Origin: Marinoscillum pacificum
Lineage (GTDB): Bacteria > Bacteroidota > Bacteroidia > Cytophagales > Cyclobacteriaceae
Assembly: GCF_024714495.1 (NCBI RefSeq)
Contig: NZ_JAMZMJ010000002.1
Span: 62,001 to 126,000, forward strand
Direction: 5' to 3'
Length of the DNA stretch: 64,000 bases
Within the stretch, counting starts at the first letter, position 1; every line of letters begins with the position of its first letter. The notes below the pieces were generated by a model that saw nothing but the letters and a program-made list of their open reading frames with translations, searched no databases and was not told the origin of the DNA. Of this stretch, positions 26,790 through 58,666 are shown piece after piece. The position numbers were made by a program, and so were the translations under genes.

Positions 26790-29270
26790 TTATTTTTCTA
26801 ACATCTTTATAAAATACCCCCCAACAACTGATCTTGCCTGAAATCCAACCTGTTCAGCATCAGGTGTTTCATACCAATCTGACATTGGAACTCTATCTGG
26901 TGTAGTGGTCACATAGTCATGGACTGGATTGATGAATTTTTGGAAAGTTTCTTTGTTATCAGCAAGAGTAGCAGTCCAAACAATCCAGTCAGATTTGGTA
27001 TAAGTTCTTCTATTGTCCAACGGAAGTCCAAAGTCATTCTGAACTGTCAGGTAATATGGAATCTCTTTTTTCACAATCTCTTCAGGGAAGATTTCATAAC
27101 CTAAAAGTTTATCCCAGACCAGGTTATATTTCTGACTCCAGGTTCCTTCCTTATCAAATGTCAACTTGTAATGATCCCCATCAGCAGCCATTTTTTCCCA
27201 CTCAGAAGCCATCTTTCGAGCTTCTGCTGTGTACTTCTCTGAGATCTCAGGTTTTCCGAGCATTTCTGCTAATCTACCATAGCTAGCAATTCCCATAATG
27301 GCTTTAATAGAAAGATTCGCATTGTGTGCAAAATGACCAGCAAAATCATCTGTACACAGTTGATTTTCAGGATCCAACCCATTCTCCAACAGATAATTAG
27401 CCCACACAGTAAGCACTTCCCAGTGATCTTTTGCATAATTAGCGTTTCCTTCCATTTCCGCAATTGCGGCTGTTAGAATAATCATGTTACCACTTTCTTC
27501 TACAGGCATGTCCCCTCCATATGTCTGGCCATTAGCCAATGGGTACGTTCCCACATCATGGGCAGCAAAAGGCTTAGTCCATTTTCCACTCTCTGAATAG
27601 TAAAAAATAGGATTCAACATCCCTTTCAATAAATCCGGATTGTATTTCAAGAATAAGGGCGCTGAAGGGTATGTGACATCCACAGTTCCTATCGATCCGT
27701 TACTGAAGTTTTCTTTAGAAAGGAACAAGATATTACCATCCTTATCCTTAGTCAGTTTATGAGCTGCGATTGACTGACGATAAGCAAGCACACACAAATC
27801 GGCATATGCTTTTCCTCCAGCTGTAACTGCTTCATTCCACATTTCATTGTCAAAATTGACACACTTACTAATCACTTTATCATGCGATTTTCCAGCATCC
27901 GTCAGTTCTTCGCTGAAGGTACTTCCATCCTGTGCCCACCATGCCTTTAAGTTGTTGTCAAAATATTGAATCGCATACAAATCATCATATCCTAACATCA
28001 AGAAACCTGATCCTTGATCAACAGAACCTAAATCGTCCGCATAGGTCATTACTGGTGTATTGGCGGTGATTTTAGACTTTTGTGTAGACAAACCGTTTCC
28101 TACATCACCACTTCTTGCAAATTGACTTTTACCATCAAAATATTTGCTAATTGCCAGGTTTCCATTTGTTTTTGGAGCTCCAGCCAAATAAGCATACCCC
28201 CAGTCGATTCTTACATTATCACCCTTCTTCCCAAGGATATTTTGAGAAGTAGTACCCGTTCTTAAAAATAAAACTTCACCTGCAGAACCAGACTCTACAG
28301 ACACTTCTTGAGACTCATCGTTCACGGCAAATTGTGGTGACATTTCGAAGAAGACTTGCACTTCATGCTCTTTGCCATCAGTGGAAGCAACACTATAGTC
28401 TATGTAATTGACAGGACGAGATAAAAGATTCAAATCATCCATTAACAAAGGAGATGTGAAACTAACATCCAGATTTACAGGCCCTGCATTGAAGCTGTAG
28501 ATCGTTTGAGTGGCAGAAAGTGAAACTCCTGTCTGCTTAGCAGTTTGAGTGAAAACCTCTTTCAAATCACTTTCGGTATAAATGCCAAAGTCTACATAAG
28601 CCCAACCTTGTCTATCTAAACAGTGTGCAGCAATGACGTTTTTTCCGCCTTGATTGATTAATGAAGCATCAATTTCCTGTACCACATCAAAGCGAGCAGC
28701 ATTTCCTGTATTGACAACCTGAGTACCGTTGATGTATAGCTCAAAATCATCATCATGAGAGAAAATAAGATATAGAGGAGTGTTTGTTTCAGGAAAATCA
28801 AACTCACGTCTCACCCAAATTTCATTATCCTCCCAAATGGTCTTTACAGACTTCATGTGATCATAACCAAATGCACCCTGACCTTCAGACCATCCTTTCG
28901 TATCAAAACCAGCTTGTTCCCAACCTTCCTTTGGCTCTGAAAACGTGTATTGTCCTGTCCAATTTTCTTCTCCTGCCATCGGAATAACAGACTCAAGAGG
29001 CACTTCCTCTTTTCCCATGAATCGATACACCTGACCGTCTACTCGTACAGCTCCGATCATCGATTGATTCTTACCTGTCCAATGCTTAGTAGGCGTATCA
29101 TATAGGTTATCAGACATAGACCACAAACTCGTATAAGGGTCAATGGTAATCAGCGGATAAGCTGGTGCCCTCAGTGAGGTGGTAAGATGTTCCACCTTTT
29201 TCTCTGCACAATTTGATAGGAGTATCATTGCACAGATCAAAGACAGACTCAATTGCTTCATTCTCTTCAT
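26790..29270 (-). CDS. DUF4965/DUF1793 glutaminase-A-like family protein with inserted domain
   Basis: 826-residue lipoprotein (signal ends LLSNC). It opens with RAPAYPLITIDPYTSLWSMSD, the DUF4964-type start of the family. DUF5127-type sandwich regions and a long (alpha/alpha)6-like DUF4965/DUF1793 region follow, the latter with HDVGTYPLANG and the C-terminal SDWYETPDAEQVGFQARSVVGG. Between residues ~80 and ~180 there is an inserted galactose-binding-like module (WEQAGFDTKGWSEGQGAFGY...DDDFELYINGTQV). A few fungal relatives are called glutaminases, but in PULs a glycosidase role is more likely. It has its own upstream operator-like element at 29303-29319. Confidence 0.82.
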   Translation of the reverse strand: MKRMKQLSLSLICAMILLSNCAEKKVEHLTTSLRAPAYPLITIDPYTSLWSMSDNLYDTPTKHWTGKNQSMIGAVRVDGQVYRFMGKEEVPLESVIPMAGEENWTGQYTFSEPKEGWEQAGFDTKGWSEGQGAFGYDHMKSVKTIWEDNEIWVRREFDFPETNTPLYLIFSHDDDFELYINGTQVVNTGNAARFDVVQEIDASLINQGGKNVIAAHCLDRQGWAYVDFGIYTESDLKEVFTQTAKQTGVSLSATQTIYSFNAGPVNLDVSFTSPLLMDDLNLLSRPVNYIDYSVASTDGKEHEVQVFFEMSPQFAVNDESQEVSVESGSAGEVLFLRTGTTSQNILGKKGDNVRIDWGYAYLAGAPKTNGNLAISKYFDGKSQFARSGDVGNGLSTQKSKITANTPVMTYADDLGSVDQGSGFLMLGYDDLYAIQYFDNNLKAWWAQDGSTFSEELTDAGKSHDKVISKCVNFDNEMWNEAVTAGGKAYADLCVLAYRQSIAAHKLTKDKDGNILFLSKENFSNGSIGTVDVTYPSAPLFLKYNPDLLKGMLNPIFYYSESGKWTKPFAAHDVGTYPLANGQTYGGDMPVEESGNMIILTAAIAEMEGNANYAKDHWEVLTVWANYLLENGLDPENQLCTDDFAGHFAHNANLSIKAIMGIASYGRLAEMLGKPEISEKYTAEARKMASEWEKMAADGDHYKLTFDKEGTWSQKYNLVWDKLLGYEIFPEEIVKKEIPYYLTVQNDFGLPLDNRRTYTKSDWIVWTATLADNKETFQKFINPVHDYVTTTPDRVPMSDWYETPDAEQVGFQARSVVGGYFIKMLEK

Positions 29271-30123: not shown

Positions 30124-31992
30124 TTATTGATTTGGATTCTTCACTAGTTTCGGGTTCTTGTTCAGCAAGTCATCACCTATTCTAGAATAGTAATTACCAA
30201 GTCTGAATCTGTCGGGATTGGTTACCTGACTAGGCAACACTTCCTTAAACACCCACTTTCCATCATTTGGACCATCTGGATCATGTACTTTGTACGGCCA
30301 TAAACCGAATGGTCTTGTACTTGGCTCAGTCGCAACACCAGGATTTTCTGTTAGTTCATCACTAGTACCGTTCCAAACGATATGAGCCAGTCTCCAACGC
30401 TTCATATCCCATAGTTGGTGACCTTCAAATGCTAATTCTACTTTACGTTCATGTACGATTCTGTCAAAATTGATGTCCGCAGCAGTCAACGGAGTAGTCA
30501 AACCTGCTCTAGTGCGTACCTGATTCATATAGTTAGCAGCATCTGCCGTATTTCCTAATTCGAAAGAAGCTTCAGCAGCATTCAAAAGCACTTCTGAGTA
30601 TCTATATCTCACCCACCAAACTTCACTTTGCACACCTCTCTGACCTGAACCAGGAGTTGGATCTAAGAATTTACGGATGTAGAAACCAGTTTGTGCACTG
30701 AATTCCAGGTTATCAATAGGACCACTGTATCCTACAACCTGAACATCTTCATCGATGCCAGGAATAGAACCTTTAGCACCAAATTGGTTTCCAGTAATGT
30801 AAGTATCATCACCCAGATAGTATCCTGCCCAAATTTCCACGTCGGTATCCTTAAAAGTGGTACCAGGAAGGATGACCGTACCACTCAAACGAGGATCTCT
30901 ATTCGCAAACAAATCAGTTGGCTCATCATAATAGATGAAGTCTGAATCGTCAGCGGTTCTGGTGGATAATTTACCAAAAGTGTTATCCAATCTCTCGAAG
31001 GATTGAACCAGGTTCAACGAAGGATTGATTCTACCTCCTTCTTGCTCCTCAGATTGATATCTTGGTTGATTAGAAATGGTGAACCCATGAACCTTACCAC
31101 TCTGCAATTTGAAATCTTCTACAAAGATTACTTCAGGGTTATTGTTCTTATCAAGGAAGATATTAGAGAAGTTATCGCTTCTGTCTGGAGTACGATCATA
31201 TAGTGAATAGCCAGACATTTCATTGAATGCTGACATCACTTTTTGATAGTACCCTGTAGCCATACTAGATGGTATGCCCACTTCATCGCCAGAAAGAGAA
31301 ACTTCAGGAGTTGTAGCACCATACTTAGCGATAGATCCAGCATACAAAGCAGCTCTCATTTGCATCGCTAATGCTGCTCCTTTGGTAGCTCTAGATTTGA
31401 TAGAAGCATCATCTGGAAGTATATTCTTGATCTCATCCAGTTCACTGATGACGAAATCATAAACTTCGTGCTCTTTAGCTCTTGCTTGTTGCAAGTAAGT
31501 AGGGTCACCACTGTAGTCGTAAGTCAATGGTTCCAATACAATTGGCACTCCACCCATACGTTTTACATGCTCGAAATATACTGCCGCTCTTAAAAATCGA
31601 GCTTCAGCCAGGAAACGCTCTCTTGCTGCTTCCGTCAATTGATCCGCCTCCTCTGCCTTTTCAATGAACAGGTTGATTTCACGGATATAACCATAATCCC
31701 AGTATCCCCAGTCAAAGTAGTTCCAGTCTTGATTGTGGTGTCTCCCATAGTCTCCAAATGCAGAAGCAAATGCCTCATCGAAGTTGGTAAATTCTACCCA
31801 GTTTTCAATTGTTTGGTAATCTGGGAAACGACCGTAAAGGTCCGCCATCACAGATAATACAAGCCCTTCATCAGACCATACTTGTTCATTAAGCAAGATG
31901 TTTTTAGGCTCCTTATTCAGAAAAACTTCATCGTCGCATGCCATTACTAAGAACAGTACTGGCACTATTAGTATTAAAAGTTGTTTTTTCAT
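30124..31992 (-). CDS. SusD/RagB family glycan-binding outer-membrane lipoprotein (PUL 1)
   Basis: The start was set at 31992 (MKKQLLILIVPVLFLVMAC), which gives a standard lipoprotein signal; an ATG at 32013 adds seven residues. Family features are the early KEPKN and VLSVMADLYGRF region, the TPR helices (RFLAEARFLRAAVYFEHVKRMGGVP), and the C-terminal RagB region with LLNAAEASFELGN, FDRIVHERKVELAFEGHQLWDMKRW. It forms the lid of the TonB-dependent SusC transporter encoded just upstream and helps capture oligosaccharides at the surface. Confidence 0.95.
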   Translation of the reverse strand: MKKQLLILIVPVLFLVMACDDEVFLNKEPKNILLNEQVWSDEGLVLSVMADLYGRFPDYQTIENWVEFTNFDEAFASAFGDYGRHHNQDWNYFDWGYWDYGYIREINLFIEKAEEADQLTEAARERFLAEARFLRAAVYFEHVKRMGGVPIVLEPLTYDYSGDPTYLQQARAKEHEVYDFVISELDEIKNILPDDASIKSRATKGAALAMQMRAALYAGSIAKYGATTPEVSLSGDEVGIPSSMATGYYQKVMSAFNEMSGYSLYDRTPDRSDNFSNIFLDKNNNPEVIFVEDFKLQSGKVHGFTISNQPRYQSEEQEGGRINPSLNLVQSFERLDNTFGKLSTRTADDSDFIYYDEPTDLFANRDPRLSGTVILPGTTFKDTDVEIWAGYYLGDDTYITGNQFGAKGSIPGIDEDVQVVGYSGPIDNLEFSAQTGFYIRKFLDPTPGSGQRGVQSEVWWVRYRYSEVLLNAAEASFELGNTADAANYMNQVRTRAGLTTPLTAADINFDRIVHERKVELAFEGHQLWDMKRWRLAHIVWNGTSDELTENPGVATEPSTRPFGLWPYKVHDPDGPNDGKWVFKEVLPSQVTNPDRFRLGNYYSRIGDDLLNKNPKLVKNPNQ

Positions 31993-32033
31993 TTTGAAAA
32001 TATTTTTAGTCATAGATCAGATCTACGAGTCGA

Positions 32034-35000
32034 TTAAAACGAAACATTTACACCAACATTCACCAGCTTGTTCTGCGGGTACTGTAGACCATTCTCGTCC
32101 ATAATCTCTGGCTCGATGCCTAAGTACTTCACATTATCAAATGAGAGTAGGTTGTAAGTGTTTACATACACTCTCATGCGCTGTAATCTAATCTTCTGAA
32201 GCAATGACTCAGGGATGTTGTATCCGATTTCCATTGTTCTAAGTCTCAAATATCTCACGTTTGTAATCCAGAAATCTGAATCTCTGTAGTTACTATGACC
32301 ACCTTCATTGAATCTCAATGAAGGGTATTTTCCAGGAATCCACTCACTATTTGGATCAAATGGATCCTCTCTATGCCATCTATCATCATAGAATTCTTTT
32401 AGCAAGTTTCCTGTGTTTTGGTAAGCAACTCTCATTTCCCAACGCTGTACATAAGAGTACATCGCTCCTCCTGAGAAGTCAGCTCTGAAATCGAAGTTTT
32501 TATATCCTAGAGTGAAATTCAAACCAAAGTTGATCGTCGGGTTTCTATCTCTAGCATGTGCAATAGGTCTACGATCATTTCCATCAATTACCTTATCGCC
32601 ATTCACATCTTTGTACATGAAGTCACCTGGAAGAAGTGTTTTATTTCCTTGTCCATCTACATTGATATCATAATCACCGATTTCTTCCATAGACTTGAAC
32701 TGACCAATTACTTCGTAGCCCCAGATAGTTCCACTCCATCTGTCTTCTTGAGAGTTCCAGTAGTGATCCAATGAGTTCCCCCAGTTCAGCTCCGGTTTGT
32801 AAGACTGTAAGAACCTGGATCTTGAGTAAGAACCATTTGCGCCAACACTATACGTCAACTCACCTGCATTACCAGAATAGTTCAGAGCAATCTCTCCTCC
32901 TACTTGTGCATCGCTTCTTAAGTTTTCCTCAGCTTGCTCATATCCAAGCAATGCTGGAAGCAATAGATCTTGTCTTCTCTGCTTCAAACCACTTCTTTTT
33001 CTATAGAAATAGTCCATGGAACCGTTTAATCTTCCATTCAAGAAACTCATATCCATCCCAACATCAAAAATCTTACTGGTGAACCAGCTGATGTTGTTGA
33101 TCGGAACACCTCTATCTCTTGCTCCATTGATCAATTCACCATCAAGAATCACTTTTGATGAAGCGTAGTTATAACCAGAGATATAATCAAACGCTCCAAT
33201 GTCCACGTTATCATCTCCAAGCTCACCATATGAAGCTCTTAATTTCCAGTTATCGATGATGCTAGAAAGATTAGATCCCTTGTAGAACCCTTCTTCACTA
33301 ATTCTCCATCCACCAGAAACTGACGGAAAAAATCCCCATCTTTTGTCTGGAGCAAACTTCCAGGAAGCATCTCTTCTACCTGCAATTTCCAGCAAATATT
33401 TATCGTCATAGTCGTAGCTAATTCTGCCTACATAACCAACACGAGCTTCTTCGTAATCATAGTCGTCATAGGTATCCATATCAGCAAACTGAAGTAATGG
33501 AAGTTCATTTGTCTTTGGTACTGTGTGTACCCATACTTCTATATTTCTTCTGTCAATATGCTCAGCCACAGCAGTAGCCTGAACATGGTGCTTGCCAAAC
33601 TTATTGTCGTAATCCAACTGTAACTGGCTTACGTTCTCCAACACCTTACGAGTTCCTCTTTCTCTCCATGGGTTGGTACTACCAGCAGTTCTGATATACT
33701 CATCGGCAACTTCATCATAAGTGTACGCATCGTAAGTATACTCGTGACCGTTCATTAATCGATCAGCCATATAGTGTGAATACAACCCTTTCACCAATAA
33801 ACCCTTAATTGGTGTTTGGTATTCAGCATTGAAGTTCAGCTGAATTACTCTCCAGTCTTCTCTCCAGTATCCAGAAATGTCTTTGTTATGAATTGCCCAG
33901 TTGGTTTCTGTATGACCTTGATCTGCAGGATAATCAGGATTATCATTCGCATAAGGTCTCTCCATCGGTCGGTTTCTGAATAAAGCAAAACGTGGTAACC
34001 AATAATCATCCGCTCCTGGGATACCTGGTTGATCACGGGTTTCAATTCTACCATTAATTTGAGAACCAATTTTTAGATTGTCCGTCAGGTTTACATCAAG
34101 GTTTGACTGAAGGTTGGTTCTATTGAACGTATATTCTCTTCCCAGAACTGATGATTGATCCAAATGACCTAGAGACAAGTAATAAGCTACTTTATCAGAT
34201 CCACCTGTTGCACTTACGTTAAACTGTGTTTGTGGAGCATTTTTCTGAATGATGAAATCATACCAATCAAAACTCTGATATCCTGTTTCATTTCCTGCTT
34301 GCCATTTGGCTAATTCTTCCGGAGTAATGTCAGTAACACCATTTCTATTAACATCAGCATCTACTTTACCAGTCATCCACTCGGCAGCATTGACCGTTTC
34401 TGGAAAACGTGACCAGTTTTGAACTCCAGTATAAGCATCTACATTGAATGTGTTTTTCTGACCAGTTTGACCTCTCTTGGTCGTTACAATAACAACCCCA
34501 TTCGCAGCTCTTGACCCATAGATTGAAGCTGACGCATCTTTAAGAATGGTGATACTCTCGATATCATTAGGGGAAATATTGTTAAACTGACCAGCATCTT
34601 TTTGAATTCCGTCAATTACATAAAGTGGATTGCCCATGTTTCTGATTTGGATATTCGCACTTGACCCAGGTCTACCATCGGCTTGTCTAAAAGTCAAACC
34701 TGAGATTTTACCAGCAAGCATGGAACTGGTAGTTACCGCATGAACACTTTTTAGATCTTTACTGGTCACGTTCGAGATAGCTCCTGTTAAAGAGTTTTTA
34801 TCTCTGCTACCATAGCCAACTACTACAACCTCCTCGAGACTGCTGTAATCTGGAACCATTTTCACATTGATTGCTCCACCGTCCATTACAGTTACTTCCT
34901 GTGGCGCATAACCAACAAAAGAAACCAATAATATTGCGCCTTCAGCTACTGTCATGCGGAAATTACCATCTACATCGGTAATGGAACCATTGGTGGTTCC

Positions 35001-35468
35001 TTTCTCCACAACCGTAGCTCCTGGAAGACCTTGACCGTTTTCATCTAATACCTGACCACTCACAGTGATATCAGCAAGAATTTCGACGATCGGCGCTTCT
35101 TTTCTTCTTAGTTTTTTGATGTAAATCGTTTCATCTACCCGTCTAAACGAAACATTGGCCTGAGATGAAATCTCACGCAACAAATCACCCAAAAATAACG
35201 TCTCATTACTGAGGTTTAGTTTGGATGATCGAAACATTCCGTCGATGTAGGAAAACTTAAAATCAGTACTTTCCTCAATCTCATTGAATACCAGCTCTAA
35301 GTCGGTGGGACTTTTTAAGGCCAAATCAATGGGAATCAGGTCCACACTTTTCTTCTGCGCATTGCCAGTTACAGCAAAGGCAAAGGTGTACATCGAAAGC
35401 TGGATGATAAGTCCGTATATGCAGATTTTAGACACCTTAATTAGATTTTTGTATAACTTTGAATCCAT
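32034..35468 (-). CDS. SusC/RagA family TonB-linked outer-membrane transporter with STN domain (PUL 1)
   Basis: 1144 residues from the ATG at 35468 (MDSKLYKNLIKVS). Domain order: signal peptide, STN domain (~45-110, linking to FecR signalling), carboxypeptidase-D-like beta domain (TVSGQVLDENGQGLPGATV), TonB box region (SLEEVVVVGYG), plug, and a 22-strand barrel ending VNVGVNVSF. It imports oligosaccharides with SusD. The STN domain plus the adjacent fecR and sigma genes show transduction from substrate binding to sigma release. The gap to fecR contains a plus-strand terminator, and the start codon would be covered by the proposed antisense RNA. Confidence 0.95.
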   Translation of the reverse strand: MDSKLYKNLIKVSKICIYGLIIQLSMYTFAFAVTGNAQKKSVDLIPIDLALKSPTDLELVFNEIEESTDFKFSYIDGMFRSSKLNLSNETLFLGDLLREISSQANVSFRRVDETIYIKKLRRKEAPIVEILADITVSGQVLDENGQGLPGATVVEKGTTNGSITDVDGNFRMTVAEGAILLVSFVGYAPQEVTVMDGGAINVKMVPDYSSLEEVVVVGYGSRDKNSLTGAISNVTSKDLKSVHAVTTSSMLAGKISGLTFRQADGRPGSSANIQIRNMGNPLYVIDGIQKDAGQFNNISPNDIESITILKDASASIYGSRAANGVVIVTTKRGQTGQKNTFNVDAYTGVQNWSRFPETVNAAEWMTGKVDADVNRNGVTDITPEELAKWQAGNETGYQSFDWYDFIIQKNAPQTQFNVSATGGSDKVAYYLSLGHLDQSSVLGREYTFNRTNLQSNLDVNLTDNLKIGSQINGRIETRDQPGIPGADDYWLPRFALFRNRPMERPYANDNPDYPADQGHTETNWAIHNKDISGYWREDWRVIQLNFNAEYQTPIKGLLVKGLYSHYMADRLMNGHEYTYDAYTYDEVADEYIRTAGSTNPWRERGTRKVLENVSQLQLDYDNKFGKHHVQATAVAEHIDRRNIEVWVHTVPKTNELPLLQFADMDTYDDYDYEEARVGYVGRISYDYDDKYLLEIAGRRDASWKFAPDKRWGFFPSVSGGWRISEEGFYKGSNLSSIIDNWKLRASYGELGDDNVDIGAFDYISGYNYASSKVILDGELINGARDRGVPINNISWFTSKIFDVGMDMSFLNGRLNGSMDYFYRKRSGLKQRRQDLLLPALLGYEQAEENLRSDAQVGGEIALNYSGNAGELTYSVGANGSYSRSRFLQSYKPELNWGNSLDHYWNSQEDRWSGTIWGYEVIGQFKSMEEIGDYDINVDGQGNKTLLPGDFMYKDVNGDKVIDGNDRRPIAHARDRNPTINFGLNFTLGYKNFDFRADFSGGAMYSYVQRWEMRVAYQNTGNLLKEFYDDRWHREDPFDPNSEWIPGKYPSLRFNEGGHSNYRDSDFWITNVRYLRLRTMEIGYNIPESLLQKIRLQRMRVYVNTYNLLSFDNVKYLGIEPEIMDENGLQYPQNKLVNVGVNVSF

Positions 35469-35560
35469 AAAATTTTGTTTTTGGTGATTGATTATCAGAA
35501 ACAATAGGCCCACAAATCCTGGTTACATTTTCCCGATGGTCTCAGGTTTGTGGGTTTTTT
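35468..35560 (+). ncRNA. Candidate cis-antisense sRNA over the susC leader (PUL 1)
   Basis: On the plus strand a -7-like box TAACTTTG (35454-35461) lies inside the first codons of the opposite-strand susC. About 50 nt further on, a hairpin with arms CCCACAAATCCTG (35509-35521) and CAGGTTTGTGGG (35543-35554) is followed by TTTTTT, a standard intrinsic terminator in the plus direction only. The predicted ~90-nt transcript would be complementary to the susC start codon and 5' leader. No good -33 box was found. Antisense sRNAs at this position are known in Bacteroides PULs of the sigma/anti-sigma type. Confidence 0.4.
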
Positions 35561-35587
35561 ATTTTCATAGGCACTATGGGTTTATTT

Positions 35588-36580
35588 TCATCTTAGTTGG
35601 ACGGTATCACCGTCGATTTCATATTTAAATTCATAAAGGAAAGAAAGCCCTTTTAAAACCGCATCAAGCGATTTATTTTTATACTCTCCTGTAAAGGTTC
35701 CTTTCACACTAAAGTCTTTGGTATAGTGGATTTTCACTCCATACCACATCTCTAAGTCACGAACTATGTCCTTGAACTCCTCATTCTTGAAATAGAGAAT
35801 CTTATCTTTCCAGCCATACATGTCTTTTGGATCAAATGGCTTCTTAATCATGTGCTTACTAGATTCATTATAGGTCACCATTTCATTCGCTTCCAGTACA
35901 ACCTTCGTTTTCTCTTCTGAAGAGGTGAATGCTACGCGACCTGTTGCTACTGCGACACTCACTTCACTTTCTTCATCATAAGTTCGGATATTAAAGGATG
36001 TTCCAAGAACTCTCACCTCTGAGTCTTTAAACTTCACATAGAAAGGTTTATGAGGATTGTGTGCTACTTCGAAAAAAGCCTCCCCTTCCAATTCAACTAC
36101 ACGTTTATTGCCGGTAAATTTTTCAGGATACTTTATTGAACTGGATGAATTGACAGTGATGATGGTACCATCTGAAAGTTGAATCGTTGACTTCTGTCCG
36201 GCATCTGTTGTTCTAGTTGTTTGAGCCACCAATTCTTTTTTTACAACAGGCTTATCCATCGCTTTGTAAACAGCAAAAACGGTAGCAAAAGAAACCACTA
36301 AAATGGCCGCTACTTTCACATACCAACTATATGATGAATTTGTACTTTCTAAAGATGGTTTTAATACGGTTTCTTGATTTTCAAGCTGAACACGGTGTCT
36401 GAAATCATCCCAAACTTCTGTGCGTGCTTTATCCAACTCTTCGATGCTCAAGTTTTCAAAAGAGTCCAGTTTATTTAGAGCCACTAGCTCCTCTGGGTGT
36501 TCGGACAACCAGGCTCTTAGCTCTACCATCTCACTGGCAGAAAGTTCATTGTTCAAATATTTCCGGAATAATTCCTCCAT
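35588..36580 (-). CDS. FecR family anti-sigma factor (PUL 1)
   Basis: 330 residues. The N-terminal ~85 residues are the cytoplasmic sigma-binding region (EELFRKYLNNELSASEMVELRAWL). A single membrane helix follows (WYVKVAAILVVSFATVFAVY, ~85-105). The periplasmic FecR domain has TIQLSDGTIITVNSSSSIKYPEKF and VRVLGTSFNIRTY, and a DUF4974-type C-terminus is fed by SusC's STN domain. It relays substrate binding at SusC to the ECF sigma encoded upstream. A 9-bp inverted repeat adjoins its start codon. Confidence 0.94.
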   Translation of the reverse strand: MEELFRKYLNNELSASEMVELRAWLSEHPEELVALNKLDSFENLSIEELDKARTEVWDDFRHRVQLENQETVLKPSLESTNSSYSWYVKVAAILVVSFATVFAVYKAMDKPVVKKELVAQTTRTTDAGQKSTIQLSDGTIITVNSSSSIKYPEKFTGNKRVVELEGEAFFEVAHNPHKPFYVKFKDSEVRVLGTSFNIRTYDEESEVSVAVATGRVAFTSSEEKTKVVLEANEMVTYNESSKHMIKKPFDPKDMYGWKDKILYFKNEEFKDIVRDLEMWYGVKIHYTKDFSVKGTFTGEYKNKSLDAVLKGLSFLYEFKYEIDGDTVQLR

Positions 36581-36713: not shown

Positions 36714-37355
36714 TTAAATGTTAGCAAATTCGCAATAGCCCAGCAATATCAAGTACTGACCAATCAGACGGATATCTGGAACTAGATTAGGATTACGTTC
36801 CTGGTAGTATGCAAGGATCTCCGCTTTCAACTTCTTTTGTGCTCTGGCAATATGTGTTTTCACCGTTTCTGTAGAAACACCTAATTCAATGGCAATTTCA
36901 GCATGTTTCAAGCCTTTATCTTTAGAAAGTCGATAGGCTAGCTGACAGACGTCTGGTAGATTATTAACGATGGACTCCAGTTTTTTACGAAGTTCTTTCT
37001 CCAATAGGACTTGCTCTGGATTAATTAAATCTATTTCATTTAAGCGATTTTTGATATCTGCCTTATGTCCAGCTTCTTTGACCTGCGCTGAAAATGCTTT
37101 TACCGCCTGATTCTTTATACCAATAAAAAAATACCCATCCAGATCTTCAATGGAAGAAATATCTATCTGACTTTTCCAGAGACTAAAGAAAAAATCAGAG
37201 ACTACATCCTTAGCCATTTCTGAATCTTTGGTAATCATCTTGGCATATCCATACAATTTATCAAAGTAGTCTTTATACAACTGTTCAAACTGAGCCTCAC
37301 GAGTACTACTCGCCAGCCCTTTGTGAACAGAAATTTTGCCTAGACTACCCGACAT
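36714..37355 (-). CDS. ECF sigma-70 factor (PUL 1)
   Basis: 213 residues. Region 2 spans about residues 23-90 (FEQLYKDYFDKLYGYAKMIT, MAKDVVSDFFFSLWKS). Region 4 spans about 135-195 with the HTH KGLKHAEIAIELGVSTETVKTHIARAQKKLKAEI. It belongs to the Bacteroidota FecI-like group that activates its own susCD operon once FecR releases it. Co-oriented with fecR and susC, as is usual. The upstream region holds a 13-bp direct repeat. Confidence 0.93.
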   Translation of the reverse strand: MSGSLGKISVHKGLASSTREAQFEQLYKDYFDKLYGYAKMITKDSEMAKDVVSDFFFSLWKSQIDISSIEDLDGYFFIGIKNQAVKAFSAQVKEAGHKADIKNRLNEIDLINPEQVLLEKELRKKLESIVNNLPDVCQLAYRLSKDKGLKHAEIAIELGVSTETVKTHIARAQKKLKAEILAYYQERNPNLVPDIRLIGQYLILLGYCEFANI

Positions 37356-54149: not shown

Positions 54150-57100
54150 TTAAAAAGTTACATCTAAACCGAATCCATAATAGATCATGGTAGGATAAGC
54201 ACGGCCACTGTTGGCTCCTGAGCTTCCCAAACTGTTGTTGAACTCTGAAAGCTCTGGATCCACAAACTTGAGCTTGGAAAGCGTAAACAGGTTTTGACCG
54301 GACACATACGCTCTAACTTTCTGTGCTCCTACTTTTTGTGAAAGGGATTGTGGCACTGTGTAGCCCAACTGCACATTTTTCACTCTCAGATACGATGCAT
54401 CAAATAGGTACATATCTGACCCTCTGCGGAAGTTGTTGGTATTGGACTGGCTACCATTATCAGCCAATCTTGGAAACGCCGCATCTGTGTTCGTTGGTGT
54501 CCAGTAATCAAGCTGATGCTCATACATGGTCATACCATAGTTAAAATGGAATGGTTCTACCAGCTCACCTCTTAGCATCATGGTACGTTTACCCACACCT
54601 TGTAGGAATATATTTAGGTCAAATCCTTTATACTGAACGTTGTACGTAAGACCATAAGTCAATCGTGGGAACGGATTGCCGAAAACAACCTTATCGTCAT
54701 CATTTATCACTCCATTACCATCCAAGTCTACATACTTGTTATCTCCAGGATATAGATTGGTCAACCCTTCTGGTTTGGCACTGTTTTGCACATCTTCCAT
54801 GTTTTGGAAATAGCCATCTCTTTTCAAACCAACGTATGAATTGAATGGATACCCCTCACGCAAAAGAATCTGAAGTTCTTCTCTTCCTACGAGCCGCTCT
54901 TGTCCCTGGAAGTCTAAAACTTCATTTTGTGAATCGGCTAGGTTTCCAGAAAATGTATGCGTAAAATCATTGGTTCTGTGAACGTAAGAAACGACAACTT
55001 CCCAACCCTGATTACCCACTTTACCGGCATTGAAATCTGGTAGACTTGTTCCAAATACCCCAGGAACTGCCGGAGGCACTAAAATATCAGAAGTCACTTT
55101 GTTAAAGTAATCCAATGAAACTGTCAGGTTTGCATCAAAGAAATCCAGATCGGCTCCAATATTGAAGGTGGCAGCTCTCTCCCATCTCAAGTTTGGATTA
55201 GCAAAGTTGTAACCTGTACCGGATACCGGATTGTTGTTAAATCCATAGGCATTTTGGTAGGTAAAGTATGTGGTTTGGTATTGATAATTGCCCACGTTTT
55301 GGTTACCCAAGACACCATAAGAAGCTCTCAACTTAATCCCACCAACCTGCTGCAGGTAGTTGCCCATAAATGCCTCCTGAGTCAAACGGTACCCTACGGA
55401 AGCAGAAGGAAAAAATCCCCATCTGTTGTTTTCATTGAATTTGGAAGATCCGTCATACCTAAAGCTCACTTCAGCAAAATACTTATCACTGAAAGAGTAT
55501 GAAACCCGACCAAACGCAGAATTTAAGCTGTTTTCCTGTGCATCCCCGTTTGACGTATTGGTTTGACCTTCATCGATAACACTTTCACTAGTTGGAGTGC
55601 CCAGGTCTGGATCCGTAAATCGATATCTTATGCTCGTTGCTCTGCGGGTATGGTTCTCATTGGACACCCCAACCAACACTCCCACATCATGGTGACTGGC
55701 AAATGTTTTGGAATAGTCCAACATGAGCTGTGTGTTGAGATCGATGGTTTTACTGTTTTCATCATAGGTGATACGATCTCCACCATAAGTTCCTTTAGGG
55801 TAGAAGTTTACTTGCTTAGTACGTGCATACTGATGATTAGAATATAACGCTCCACCAAACACCGCTTTAGCTTTCAATCCGTCCAATATTTCGAACTCTC
55901 CTTGAAGATTTCCAAAAACATTATCATCCTCATACCTTCTGAAACCACCTTCTTCCAAAATACCAAGAGAGTTAAATTCCTGAAGTACATCATTGGTCAC
56001 GAATCTACCAAGAGAATCTCTCTGCTTGTAAATCAAAGGCACGCGATTAGCGTCTACCATTAGTGTACTTGTGGAACTGGAATGGTCATCAATTTCTCTA
56101 CGCACATAATTGAGCATTGAAGTCATCTTGAAGCGACCAAACTCATTGGTCATATTGATACGGTAGTTGTATCTCTGCATACCTTTATCCGGACCTACGA
56201 AGTTGCTATTTTGATCCACATAGCCCATGGAGATAAAATAGGTAGACTGATCATTTCCTCCGGAAAGGCTTAAGTTATGGTTTTGCTGCCACGCTGGCTT
56301 GGTGATCTCATCGGCAAACCATTCCTCATCACCATTTTGTTTAAATTGACGAATCTGCTCTGGAGTATAAACTACCGAGTTTTTACCAGCATTGGCTGCA
56401 GACTCATTTCTAAGTATCGCATTTTGATAACCGCTTACTGGCTGCATAAAAAAGTGCGGGGTATTCACACCAGCCAGGCCATTGTAAGTCAAGCTCATTG
56501 CTCTACCTTTCTTACCTTTTTTGGTGGTCACAAGGATCACACCATTGTTAGCTCGAGATCCATAAATGGCGGCACTTCCTGCGTCTTTCAAAACAGAAAT
56601 ACTTTCAATATCTGAAGGGTTAATAAGGTTAATATCTCCACCAACTATTCCATCGATCACCACCAGAGGACTGTTATTACCCAAAGTGCTGATACCACGA
56701 ATGTTTAAGTTCATTTGAGCACCTGGCTCCTGGTTGGTCTGTTGAACAATTAGGTTTGGGGAAACTCCCTGAAGAGCCTGAGTCATGTTGGCATTGGGTC
56801 TACCTTCCAGCTTTTCTGCAGTCACCTGATCAACCGATCCTACCACGCTAGCCTTCTTTTGTACTCCGTAGCCCAAAACCACTACCTCCTCAAGGCTGGT
56901 ATAATCCGGCTCCATTTGGACGGTAAGGTTAGACTGATCGCTGACCTTCACTTCCTGAGAAATGTATCCAACAAATGAAATCAACAACGTGGCTCCGCTA
57001 GTTACATTTAGTGTGAATTTGCCATCCATACCTGTAATGGTTCCATTGGTTGTTCCTTTTTCCATTACAGTAGCACCAGGCAGGGCTTCACCGTTTTCAT

Positions 57101-57530
57101 CCAGAACCTGTCCAGTGATACGGTCTTGTTCAATTATTACTTCTATTTCACTAGAATTGCGACCAGCGTTTACCTTCACACTAATGCGATCGTTTACTTG
57201 CCGAAACCCTACTTTGGTCTGTCTCGAAATCTCTAAAAGAACTTCCTCTACGGTATTTCTTTTTGATTTGATGTTCACAGATCCATAATCCTTTAATTGA
57301 GCAGGATCATAGACAAATACATAGTTTGTTTTGTCTTCAATTGCTTTTAACACACTTGTCAATTGGGCATCAGAAACATCAAGGCTTATGGTCGCCTTTT
57401 TGACGCTCACAATCCCCTGCGCATGACCATTACTGGCCAGGGCTACGGTAAACAGCACAGTGCTGAATACATACGTGTAGATTGCATACTTTCCAAGCAT
57501 CACTAAATAGTAGTAATGTTTATTTTTCAT
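54150..57530 (-). CDS. SusC/RagA family TonB-linked outer-membrane transporter with STN domain (PUL 2)
   Basis: 1126 residues. Signal peptide ending NGHAQG, then an STN domain (~40-120; ISLDVSDAQLTSVLKAIEDKTNYVFVYD), a carboxypeptidase-D-like domain (ITGQVLDENGEALPGATVMEKGTTNGT), a TonB box region (SLEEVVVLGYGVQKKASVVG), plug, and a barrel ending YYGFGLDVTF. It imports mannan oligosaccharides and signals to FecR2. As in PUL 1, the gap to fecR holds a plus-strand terminator. Confidence 0.95.
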   Translation of the reverse strand: MKNKHYYYLVMLGKYAIYTYVFSTVLFTVALASNGHAQGIVSVKKATISLDVSDAQLTSVLKAIEDKTNYVFVYDPAQLKDYGSVNIKSKRNTVEEVLLEISRQTKVGFRQVNDRISVKVNAGRNSSEIEVIIEQDRITGQVLDENGEALPGATVMEKGTTNGTITGMDGKFTLNVTSGATLLISFVGYISQEVKVSDQSNLTVQMEPDYTSLEEVVVLGYGVQKKASVVGSVDQVTAEKLEGRPNANMTQALQGVSPNLIVQQTNQEPGAQMNLNIRGISTLGNNSPLVVIDGIVGGDINLINPSDIESISVLKDAGSAAIYGSRANNGVILVTTKKGKKGRAMSLTYNGLAGVNTPHFFMQPVSGYQNAILRNESAANAGKNSVVYTPEQIRQFKQNGDEEWFADEITKPAWQQNHNLSLSGGNDQSTYFISMGYVDQNSNFVGPDKGMQRYNYRINMTNEFGRFKMTSMLNYVRREIDDHSSSTSTLMVDANRVPLIYKQRDSLGRFVTNDVLQEFNSLGILEEGGFRRYEDDNVFGNLQGEFEILDGLKAKAVFGGALYSNHQYARTKQVNFYPKGTYGGDRITYDENSKTIDLNTQLMLDYSKTFASHHDVGVLVGVSNENHTRRATSIRYRFTDPDLGTPTSESVIDEGQTNTSNGDAQENSLNSAFGRVSYSFSDKYFAEVSFRYDGSSKFNENNRWGFFPSASVGYRLTQEAFMGNYLQQVGGIKLRASYGVLGNQNVGNYQYQTTYFTYQNAYGFNNNPVSGTGYNFANPNLRWERAATFNIGADLDFFDANLTVSLDYFNKVTSDILVPPAVPGVFGTSLPDFNAGKVGNQGWEVVVSYVHRTNDFTHTFSGNLADSQNEVLDFQGQERLVGREELQILLREGYPFNSYVGLKRDGYFQNMEDVQNSAKPEGLTNLYPGDNKYVDLDGNGVINDDDKVVFGNPFPRLTYGLTYNVQYKGFDLNIFLQGVGKRTMMLRGELVEPFHFNYGMTMYEHQLDYWTPTNTDAAFPRLADNGSQSNTNNFRRGSDMYLFDASYLRVKNVQLGYTVPQSLSQKVGAQKVRAYVSGQNLFTLSKLKFVDPELSEFNNSLGSSGANSGRAYPTMIYYGFGLDVTF

Positions 57531-57543
57531 AGATTTGTTTGGA

Positions 57544-57611
57544 TTTAGTTAAGTCTAAATTGCATTTGAGGCTCTCTGTGATCTGTTGGCGCATATCGGG
57601 AGAGCCTTTTT
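57544..57611 (+). ncRNA. Candidate cis-antisense sRNA over the susC leader (PUL 2)
   Basis: On the plus strand a -7 box TAGATTTG (57530-57537) abuts the opposite-strand susC start codon. A hairpin with arms AGGCTCTC (57569-57576) and GAGAGCCT (57600-57607) is followed by TTTTT. The minus direction has no T-run after this hairpin, so it works as a terminator only for plus-strand RNA. The predicted ~65-nt transcript would pair with the susC mRNA leader. The arrangement repeats that of PUL 1. The -33 region is weak. Confidence 0.4.
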
Positions 57612-57613
57612 AC

Positions 57614-58666
57614 TTACTGGGTAAATCTTATGTAAACCCGCTCTTTATTGATCTCATATTCAAATTCATGTGCATAGCTTATACTGTTTAATACATTAGC
57701 TAAATAGTCTTTATCAAATCGTCCTGACACTTTTTTATCCGCTATCAAGCGATCATTCTCTACATTAATTTTCACTCCATACCATAGCTCAAGAGTCTCA
57801 AAACATTCCGAAAGTGGAGTGTTTTCAAAATAGATAATACCATCTTTCCACAATGCTTTGGTTTTCCTGTCAAATGTTCCTTTTGTAATTTGATTGTTAC
57901 TAAAAGTGATTTCTTCCCCTGGCACCAGATAAGCTGTTTCATTCTTTTCTAATGCATCTACTTGTACCTTTCCGGTTAGCAGACTCACTTGCTGATAATG
58001 ATCTTCTCGGGCTTTGACGTTAAATGAAGTTCCCAACACAGTGGTACGGAGTTGAGTAGTAGTCACTACAAATGGCTTGTCTTTGTTTTTGGTCACTTCA
58101 AAAAATACTTCACCTGCCACCTGAACACTTCGAAGTGTATCTGAAAACTCCTTAGGGTATGAAATGGAACTATGTGCATTAAGAATAGCCACTGATCCAT
58201 CTGATAAATGAATGGTCAATTTCTGCCCCGTTTCAGTACGCTTAGTTACTATCTCAGCAACCTGCTCAGAAGTTTGATCAAAAAATGAAAGTTCACCATG
58301 TAGTAATGTCAATACCGTAGCAACAATTAATAGACTTACAGCCGCTGCAACTTTCCAAATACTCTTCCATTGTGGTGACTTTCCACCAGGACTAACCTGA
58401 AACGCTGCTCCATTTTCCTGACTAATTACATCATTAACCAGTGACTCCTCCGCCAAACGTTTATGAATGTTGGACAGCATTTTCTCGCTATCTAAAGATG
58501 AACCAGACTGCTCCTCCCTGAACGAATCAAATAATTTTTCAAACTCGGCTTTACCTTCATCAGAATTGATCCATACCAACACCTCATGTGCCTGCTTAGG
58601 TGTGCACTCTCCGCGGAAAAATTTATGTAGTAGTTCAGACTTCAAGTTTCTCTCTGTTTTACTCAT
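57614..58666 (-). CDS. FecR family anti-sigma factor (PUL 2)
   Basis: 350 residues. Cytoplasmic N-terminus (~1-100; LLHKFFRGECTPKQAHEVLVWI), one membrane helix (WKVAAAVSLLIVATVLTLL, ~105-125), the FecR domain (LTIHLSDGSVAILNAHSSISYPKEF, LRTTVLGTSFNVKAR) and the DUF4974-type C-terminus (LWYGVKINVENDRLIADKKVSGRF). It transmits SusC2 occupancy to the divergent ECF sigma gene. Its start faces the sigma gene across 212 nt. Confidence 0.94.
   Translation of the reverse strand: MSKTERNLKSELLHKFFRGECTPKQAHEVLVWINSDEGKAEFEKLFDSFREEQSGSSLDSEKMLSNIHKRLAEESLVNDVISQENGAAFQVSPGGKSPQWKSIWKVAAAVSLLIVATVLTLLHGELSFFDQTSEQVAEIVTKRTETGQKLTIHLSDGSVAILNAHSSISYPKEFSDTLRSVQVAGEVFFEVTKNKDKPFVVTTTQLRTTVLGTSFNVKAREDHYQQVSLLTGKVQVDALEKNETAYLVPGEEITFSNNQITKGTFDRKTKALWKDGIIYFENTPLSECFETLELWYGVKINVENDRLIADKKVSGRFDKDYLANVLNSISYAHEFEYEINKERVYIRFTQ

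Follow-up and report, generated by a model that had tools for sequence, protein, structure and literature searches.

The window, by which is meant the whole 64-kb stretch of DNA that was analysed, contains a PUL with its genes on the minus strand. An ECF-type sigma factor (36714-37355; Pfam Sigma70_r2 and Sigma70_r4_2) precedes a fecR anti-sigma factor (35588-36580; FecR and FecR_C), which is followed by a susC-type TonB-dependent receptor (32034-35468; Plug and CarbopepD_reg_2) and by susD (30124-32013; SusD_RagB). The longest open reading frame of susC opens at a GTG (35513), a start that was replaced by the likely ATG at 35468. Downstream of the ECF sigma/FecR pair, and encoded on the plus strand opposite the 5' end and leader of the susC homologue, its presumed target, lies a putative antisense element. 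It begins with the -7 promoter box (TAnnTTTG) TAACTTTG at 35454-35461, within susC codons 3-5, and continues in plus-strand order across the susC start codon (35466-35468, read here as its complement) to a 5' hairpin whose sequence is complementary to that of the susC leader (35477-35502; from fold and covariation), an intrinsic terminator hairpin (35508-35555; from the fold) and the T6 tail of that terminator, read directly from the sequence (35555-35560).

Taken with the fold and a covariance model, the box and the terminator predict a cis-antisense sRNA of about 96 nt (35465-35560, plus strand), with a start site placed near 35465 because the box is expected to be centred at -7, as described in the accessible part of one report (PMC7366714). 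Since TAACTTTG belongs to the +7 class of boxes defined below, the predicted RNA should cover the susC start codon. Read on the minus strand, the terminator hairpin has A6 before it and CCTATTG after it, so that a U-tail exists only on the plus strand. The earlier note had pointed to a box inside the first susC codons ahead of a hairpin, to six T's following that hairpin on the plus strand alone, and to a potential RNA of about 90 nt complementary to the susC start codon and leader, and this anatomy, from box to T-run, bears it out on each count. The -33 element of the locus, read by eye as TTTTAG, is weak, and a sigma-70 promoter scan of the window returned nothing relevant.

The family of PUL cis-antisense RNAs that includes DonS was reportedly described by Cao in 2016. 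In the accessible parts of the literature, DonS and this family are documented in Bacteroides fragilis and B. thetaiotaomicron (PMC7366714, PMC10994844, PMC11697453), with lengths of 78-128 nt, a housekeeping promoter for 52% of the B. thetaiotaomicron cis-antisense candidates, and strong predicted folding for selected B. thetaiotaomicron members (PMC7366714). The same partial sources state that DonS acts as a repressor of its PUL through a mechanism not yet understood (PMC11697453), and that both negative and positive correlations are reported between the antisense RNAs and susC genes of B. thetaiotaomicron (PMC10994844). Random promoters are among the origins considered for PUL antisense RNAs (PMC7366714). 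The window RNA resembles the DonS family, as far as these sources describe it, in being antisense to the susC homologue of a PUL and in its predicted length. Its exact TAnnTTTG box would provide its own housekeeping-type promoter, as in part of the B. thetaiotaomicron set, and it has its own intrinsic terminator (-21.4 kcal/mol, followed by T6). However, the host is a member of the Cyclobacteriaceae (Marinoscillum) rather than Bacteroides, the likeness to DonS seen here is one of layout, and these reports give expression and repression for Bacteroides only, whereas the window RNA is predicted from sequence. Antisense transcripts were also measured in Flavobacterium psychrophilum, likewise a non-Bacteroides member of the phylum, and the authors of that study refer to the PUL antisense RNAs of Bacteroides as a model; unlike the window RNA, these transcripts are not tied to fecR-susC gaps or to a promoter/terminator layout in the accessible text (PMC9723704). 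A literature search of partial coverage found no description of such PUL antisense RNA genes outside Bacteroides. To the extent that these sources allow, the window RNA would be a further case of a known, DonS-like kind, with a wider range than previously described.

On the plus strand, the region 35468-35566 (99 nt) folds at -34 kcal/mol (z -5.3), a value equalled by none of 200 shuffles, and the minus strand over 35450-35587 (138 nt) behaves as an ordinary leader (z -0.84). The 5' hairpin, which was absent from the earlier note, is partly held by plus-strand G-U pairs; as these turn into A-C on the minus strand, the hairpin is not equivalent there. The terminator ranks second among the plus-strand T-tailed hairpins of the window, in a list of 35 clusters at -15 kcal/mol or better on both strands together. 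It was not listed by a simple terminator scan, probably because that scan was limited to loops of 3-8 nt. At the gathering threshold, Rfam matched only a tRNA in the whole window, while permissive Rfam searches gave snoRNA and RybB matches far under their cut-offs in 35400-35650 and only a tRNA across 12 loci. A DNA similarity search in plasmids returned no match. Among the matches listed in a DNA search of 98 genomes, one clear homologous gap was found besides the window (L026 in G003, E 5.5e-13), the others listed being short stretches at E 7.8e-4 or worse.

The layout was then followed across FecR_C (PF16344) loci from the same genome, its genus, family, order and phylum, together with 80 further regions; the rows taken were those with a locus plus the 80 fetched regions, a part of all FecR_C rows. 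In each case the gap from fecR to the next ORF was searched for T-tailed hairpins on both strands. The next ORF was taken as susC, with profile confirmation as SusC at some loci rather than all, and where an antisense hairpin was found the susC start codon was set, irrespective of any box, as the first in-frame ATG after the hairpin. From 208 loci, 195 were scored and 13 dropped (no next ORF, no orientation, or a stop too far away); 145 of the scored gaps measured 60-320 nt, 48 were under 60 nt and 2 over 320 nt. At -12 kcal/mol or better, antisense terminators were present in 76 of the 95 gaps from the same genome, genus and family, and sense terminators in 12. By rank, antisense terminators were found in 9/12 gaps of the same genome, leaving 3 of the 12 without one at this threshold, and in 22/24 of the genus, 45/59 of the family, 9/17 of the order and 20/33 of the class/phylum, where the sense counts were 3, 4, 5, 3 and 7. 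In a first set from the same genome, genus and family, 43 of 52 gaps had an antisense terminator against 8.4 of 52 in dinucleotide shuffles. Control co-directional gaps of the same genome (n=70) showed the reversed bias, with 10 antisense and 23 sense; the comparison of fecR gaps with control gaps gives a Fisher p of 1e-17, and such p values overstate the difference since the loci are related to each other.

This asymmetry bears on the alternative that the hairpin acts on the sense strand, as part of the susC leader or as a fecR-susC intercistronic stem that stabilises the mRNA or attenuates transcription. The hairpin does fold on the minus strand as well (-15.8 kcal/mol), and over 162 loci the median z of the complete region on the sense strand is -2.3, as expected of any strong inverted repeat, but a sense-strand element would not place the T-tails on the antisense side.

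Named relatives collected through FecR (80 loci, of which 6 were dropped, 74 scored and 61 fell in the gap range) gave antisense terminators in 48 of 61 gaps, sense terminators in 10 and the exact box in 26. Loci with an antisense terminator include those of Dyadobacter, Imperialibacter, Algoriphagus, Echinicola, Chitinophaga, Niabella, Flagellimonas, Sinomicrobium and Marinifilum. The Bacteroides comparison, intended as a positive control, covered Bacteroides sp. Marseille-P3684 together with 14 more genomes from its genus, with 3 of 20 rows dropped in one set and 9 of 26 in another. In this genus 22 of 34 scored gaps were under 60 nt; the 7 eligible gaps included none with the exact box and 5 with a T-tailed hairpin of -12 kcal/mol or better on the antisense strand. 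Five FecR loci of the window genome (L010, L012, L014, L016 and L019) have the next ORF within 20 nt of fecR, and such short-gap loci are a second class with no room for an antisense element. Some fecR relatives lie on MAG contigs labelled Rickettsiales (PBTY01000012.1, in the L265-L276-L285 set) or Thalassovita (PBYL01000134.1, PBYL01000139.1); these labels look wrong for the contigs of L265, L276 and L285.

A second regularity concerns the promoter. TAnnTTTG is the housekeeping sigma -7 consensus in Bacteroides and was confirmed in Flavobacterium johnsoniae, according to the accessible part of the source (PMC7366714). Among the 114 loci that have an antisense terminator (-10 kcal/mol or better), 46 carry an exact TAnnTTTG on the antisense strand no more than 30 nt from the susC ATG, as do 3 of the 31 loci that lack such a terminator; the exact sense-strand box was found near the susC ATG in 0 of 145 loci (0 of the 114 with a terminator). 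In a narrower window around the start, 44 of 114 loci carried the exact antisense box against 2 of 114 in shuffles. The positions are concentrated: 38 of the 46 boxes sit exactly at -7 or +7, and the ranges from -8 to -6 and from +5 to +8 together take in 43. The exact box is absent from 68 of the 114 terminator-bearing loci, and boxes with one mismatch mean little, because shuffles yield them equally often (52/114 observed, 53/114 shuffled). Among controls, receptors with a short gap had the box in 2 of 48 cases, for 255 other gene starts the bins from -20 to +20 contained 7 boxes, and 1 of 70 control starts had one at exactly -7.

When named relatives are included, the box falls between -8 and -6 or between +5 and +8 in 65 of 161 distinct loci. 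Thirty-eight of these have it at -7 with a C (CATAnnTTTG, overlapping the start codon) and 18 at +7, the remainder being 5 at +8, 2 at +5 and 2 at -8. The predicted RNAs of these 65 loci have a median length of 97 nt, with 54 within 78-128 nt, and CAAA occurs at the -33 spacing in 21 of them against 9.4 expected. For boxes of the -7 class, the predicted 5' end falls upstream of the susC start codon by about 11 nt. Elsewhere in the same PUL, a GtaA-like gene (ORF 26790-29270, minus strand) has CAAAnnTA exactly at -7 of its ATG (window 29270), and no antisense terminator was found at that gene start.

A fixed antisense promoter box is left unexplained if the hairpin is a sense-strand element, and its placement also bears on another explanation, in which the hairpin is a guard terminator that halts stray antisense transcription from susC into the fecR and sigma factor genes, the RNA itself being functionless. 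The element does sit just ahead of these regulators in the antisense direction, and antisense transcription is described in the accessible parts of two reports as widespread and perhaps partly noise (PMC7366714, PMC9723704). Stray transcription would not account for boxes that, instead of being scattered, cluster at -7 and between +5 and +8 relative to the start codon.

The part between the start codon and the terminator played no role in the selection of loci, and it could be scored in 152 of 162. Its median z is -1.73 on the antisense strand, with 46% of loci below -2, and -0.41 on the sense strand, with 14% below -2 (paired Wilcoxon p 2e-16, the loci being treated as independent despite their kinship). 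Structure in this part thus lies mainly on the antisense strand, which further argues against a sense-strand element and, together with the T-tails and the box, makes that explanation unlikely.

Covariation was assessed in two groups. In the group formed by the own-genome locus L005 and its relatives (9 sequences, aligned with MAFFT), 9 pairs changed on both sides; 16 two-sided cells were counted against 5.3 in shuffles, a number reached by 0 of 500, while further pair types were not raised (474 of 500 shuffles reach that number). Aligned by a covariance model with weak matches included, this group gave 22 two-sided pairs (0 of 500 shuffles). The window group, aligned by its own covariance model, gave 15 two-sided pairs (0 of 500 shuffles) from 11 matches, 10 of them distinct and weak ones included, in an alignment that leans to the model. 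A plain MAFFT alignment of the window sequence and its 4 closest relatives, which is poor over the 5' hairpin, had 4 pairs changed on both sides, and its covariation term of +0.76 speaks against the structure.

The covariance model built from these 5 sequences was searched against 60 whole genomes of the family. It gave 9 matches with E values of 0.1 or lower. As judged from flanking translations, 8 of these fall in fecR-susC gaps; 3 of the 8 are training sequences, so that 5 of the 6 independent matches lie in such gaps. The odd match (L377, E 0.013) falls between unrelated genes, and the same model run over 82 loci gave a weak off-target match (L264 at 723-812, E 0.096). The window RNA, itself a training sequence, scores 92.9 bits. 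The earlier note had held that a hairpin without conservation in relatives would speak against its proposal and had suggested a covariation search of the fecR-susC gaps of related genomes; alignment, model matches and covariation uphold the conservation, and five of the six independent matches fit the expected location. A structured, covarying 5' hairpin ahead of the terminator also counts against a mere guard terminator.

The terminators share a further feature in part. Among 159 distinct hairpins, 23 have the apical loop TGTTNNNGCA, against 0.57 expected from shuffles, and 4 have its reverse complement; the loop is common to otherwise unrelated stems and occurs in 1 of 44 and 0 of 224 control terminators. 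TTCCCCAA is found in 9 of the 159 hairpins and its reverse complement in 1. The loop of the window terminator, TTTTCCCGA, is not of the TGTTNNNGCA type. C-rich loops were considered as a general feature and rejected, CCC being present in only 12% of 155 loops (0 of 31 control loops). In the near-identical fecR-susC gaps L109 and L110 the loop appears in opposite orientations (TGCTGGAACA and TGTTCCAGCA), as if it had been inverted inside its stem.

A conserved loop is not expected of a guard terminator, and with the placement of the box and the covarying hairpin it renders that explanation improbable. Conservation of loop letters across unrelated stems would also fit a DNA element, in which the loop, read in the sense direction as TGCNNNAACA or GGGGAA, serves as an operator or as the -35 box of the susC ECF promoter, with the palindrome of secondary importance. 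AAC and GGAA recall ECF -35 boxes, and the sense loops carry one or the other. On the other hand, a strong, conserved -10 motif at a fixed distance after the loop was not found in 23 loci, so that the loop is not read as an ECF -35 box; no AAC-CGT type pair was present among the top-ranked dyads listed for 161 loci, nor was a sense promoter of susC found among them; and the loop is reversed in 4 loci. A DNA element is accordingly very unlikely. A role as a kissing loop would agree with the strand bias and also with the fact that inversion is tolerated, but the loop may instead be a protein site.

A second antisense RNA candidate in the window spans 57530-57611, over the start of another susC. 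This ORF (54150-57530, minus strand; Plug, CarbopepD_reg_2 and TonB barrel) has its start codon overlapped by the plus-strand box TAGATTTG (57530-57537, offset -7), followed by a plus-strand terminator hairpin (57568-57608) with the apical loop GTTGGCGC, which is of the TGTTNNNGCA type, and a T-run. Beyond it lies a fecR ORF (57614-58666, minus strand), and this equivalent hairpin is the third of the plus-strand T-tailed hairpins in the window.

The locus is thus probably a DonS-type cis-antisense small RNA gene outside Bacteroides, a reading based on observed gene anatomy, conservation, strand asymmetry and covariation. We infer that the predicted RNA is transcribed, pairs with susC and represses it. 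The housekeeping sigma factor would read TAACTTTG in the first susC codons, producing an RNA that would end at the hairpin and T6 in the fecR-susC gap and have full complementarity to the start codon and leader of susC. First contact with the susC mRNA would be a loop-loop interaction, followed by pairing along the leader, which would block susC translation and lower the mRNA level. Leaky ECF transcription would then yield no receptor until substrate frees the sigma factor. Transcriptional interference, by polymerase bound over the susC start, is a possible alternative route of action.

The suggestion of the earlier note that the mechanism is a wider one holds at the level of gene anatomy, as the same promoter/terminator layout recurs in the genome, genus, family, order and class; given that the Marseille-P3684 genus, within the Bacteroidales, is largely without it, the layout is widespread but not universal. 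Because promoter position, terminator strand and RNA structure recur across orders, selection appears to act on the antisense RNA itself. A more far-reaching and tentative proposal, which at present seems rather doubtful in its full extent, is that much of the class Bacteroidia has sigma/anti-sigma controlled susC genes with a built-in antisense RNA gene, in which the promoter keeps one of two set distances from the start codon and the terminator hairpin doubles as a recognition element, with a shared loop frame TGTTNNNGCA, variable in its three-base core, on unrelated stems in part of them.

The role of PUL antisense RNAs in Bacteroides is unsettled, judging from the accessible parts of two reports (PMC10994844, PMC7366714). 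RNA-seq data from any member of the Bacteroidota can be compared with a simple rule, namely TAnnTTTG at -7 or about +7 of susC accompanied by an antisense terminator between fecR and susC. If the more far-reaching proposal for the class is true, the TGTTNNNGCA frame would be a kissing loop or the site of a common RNA-binding protein, coupling or separating the control of many PULs per cell. Antisense RNA control of PULs, as known from gut Bacteroides, probably has a much wider reach, in a phylum whose glycan uptake matters in the gut, in soil and in the sea.
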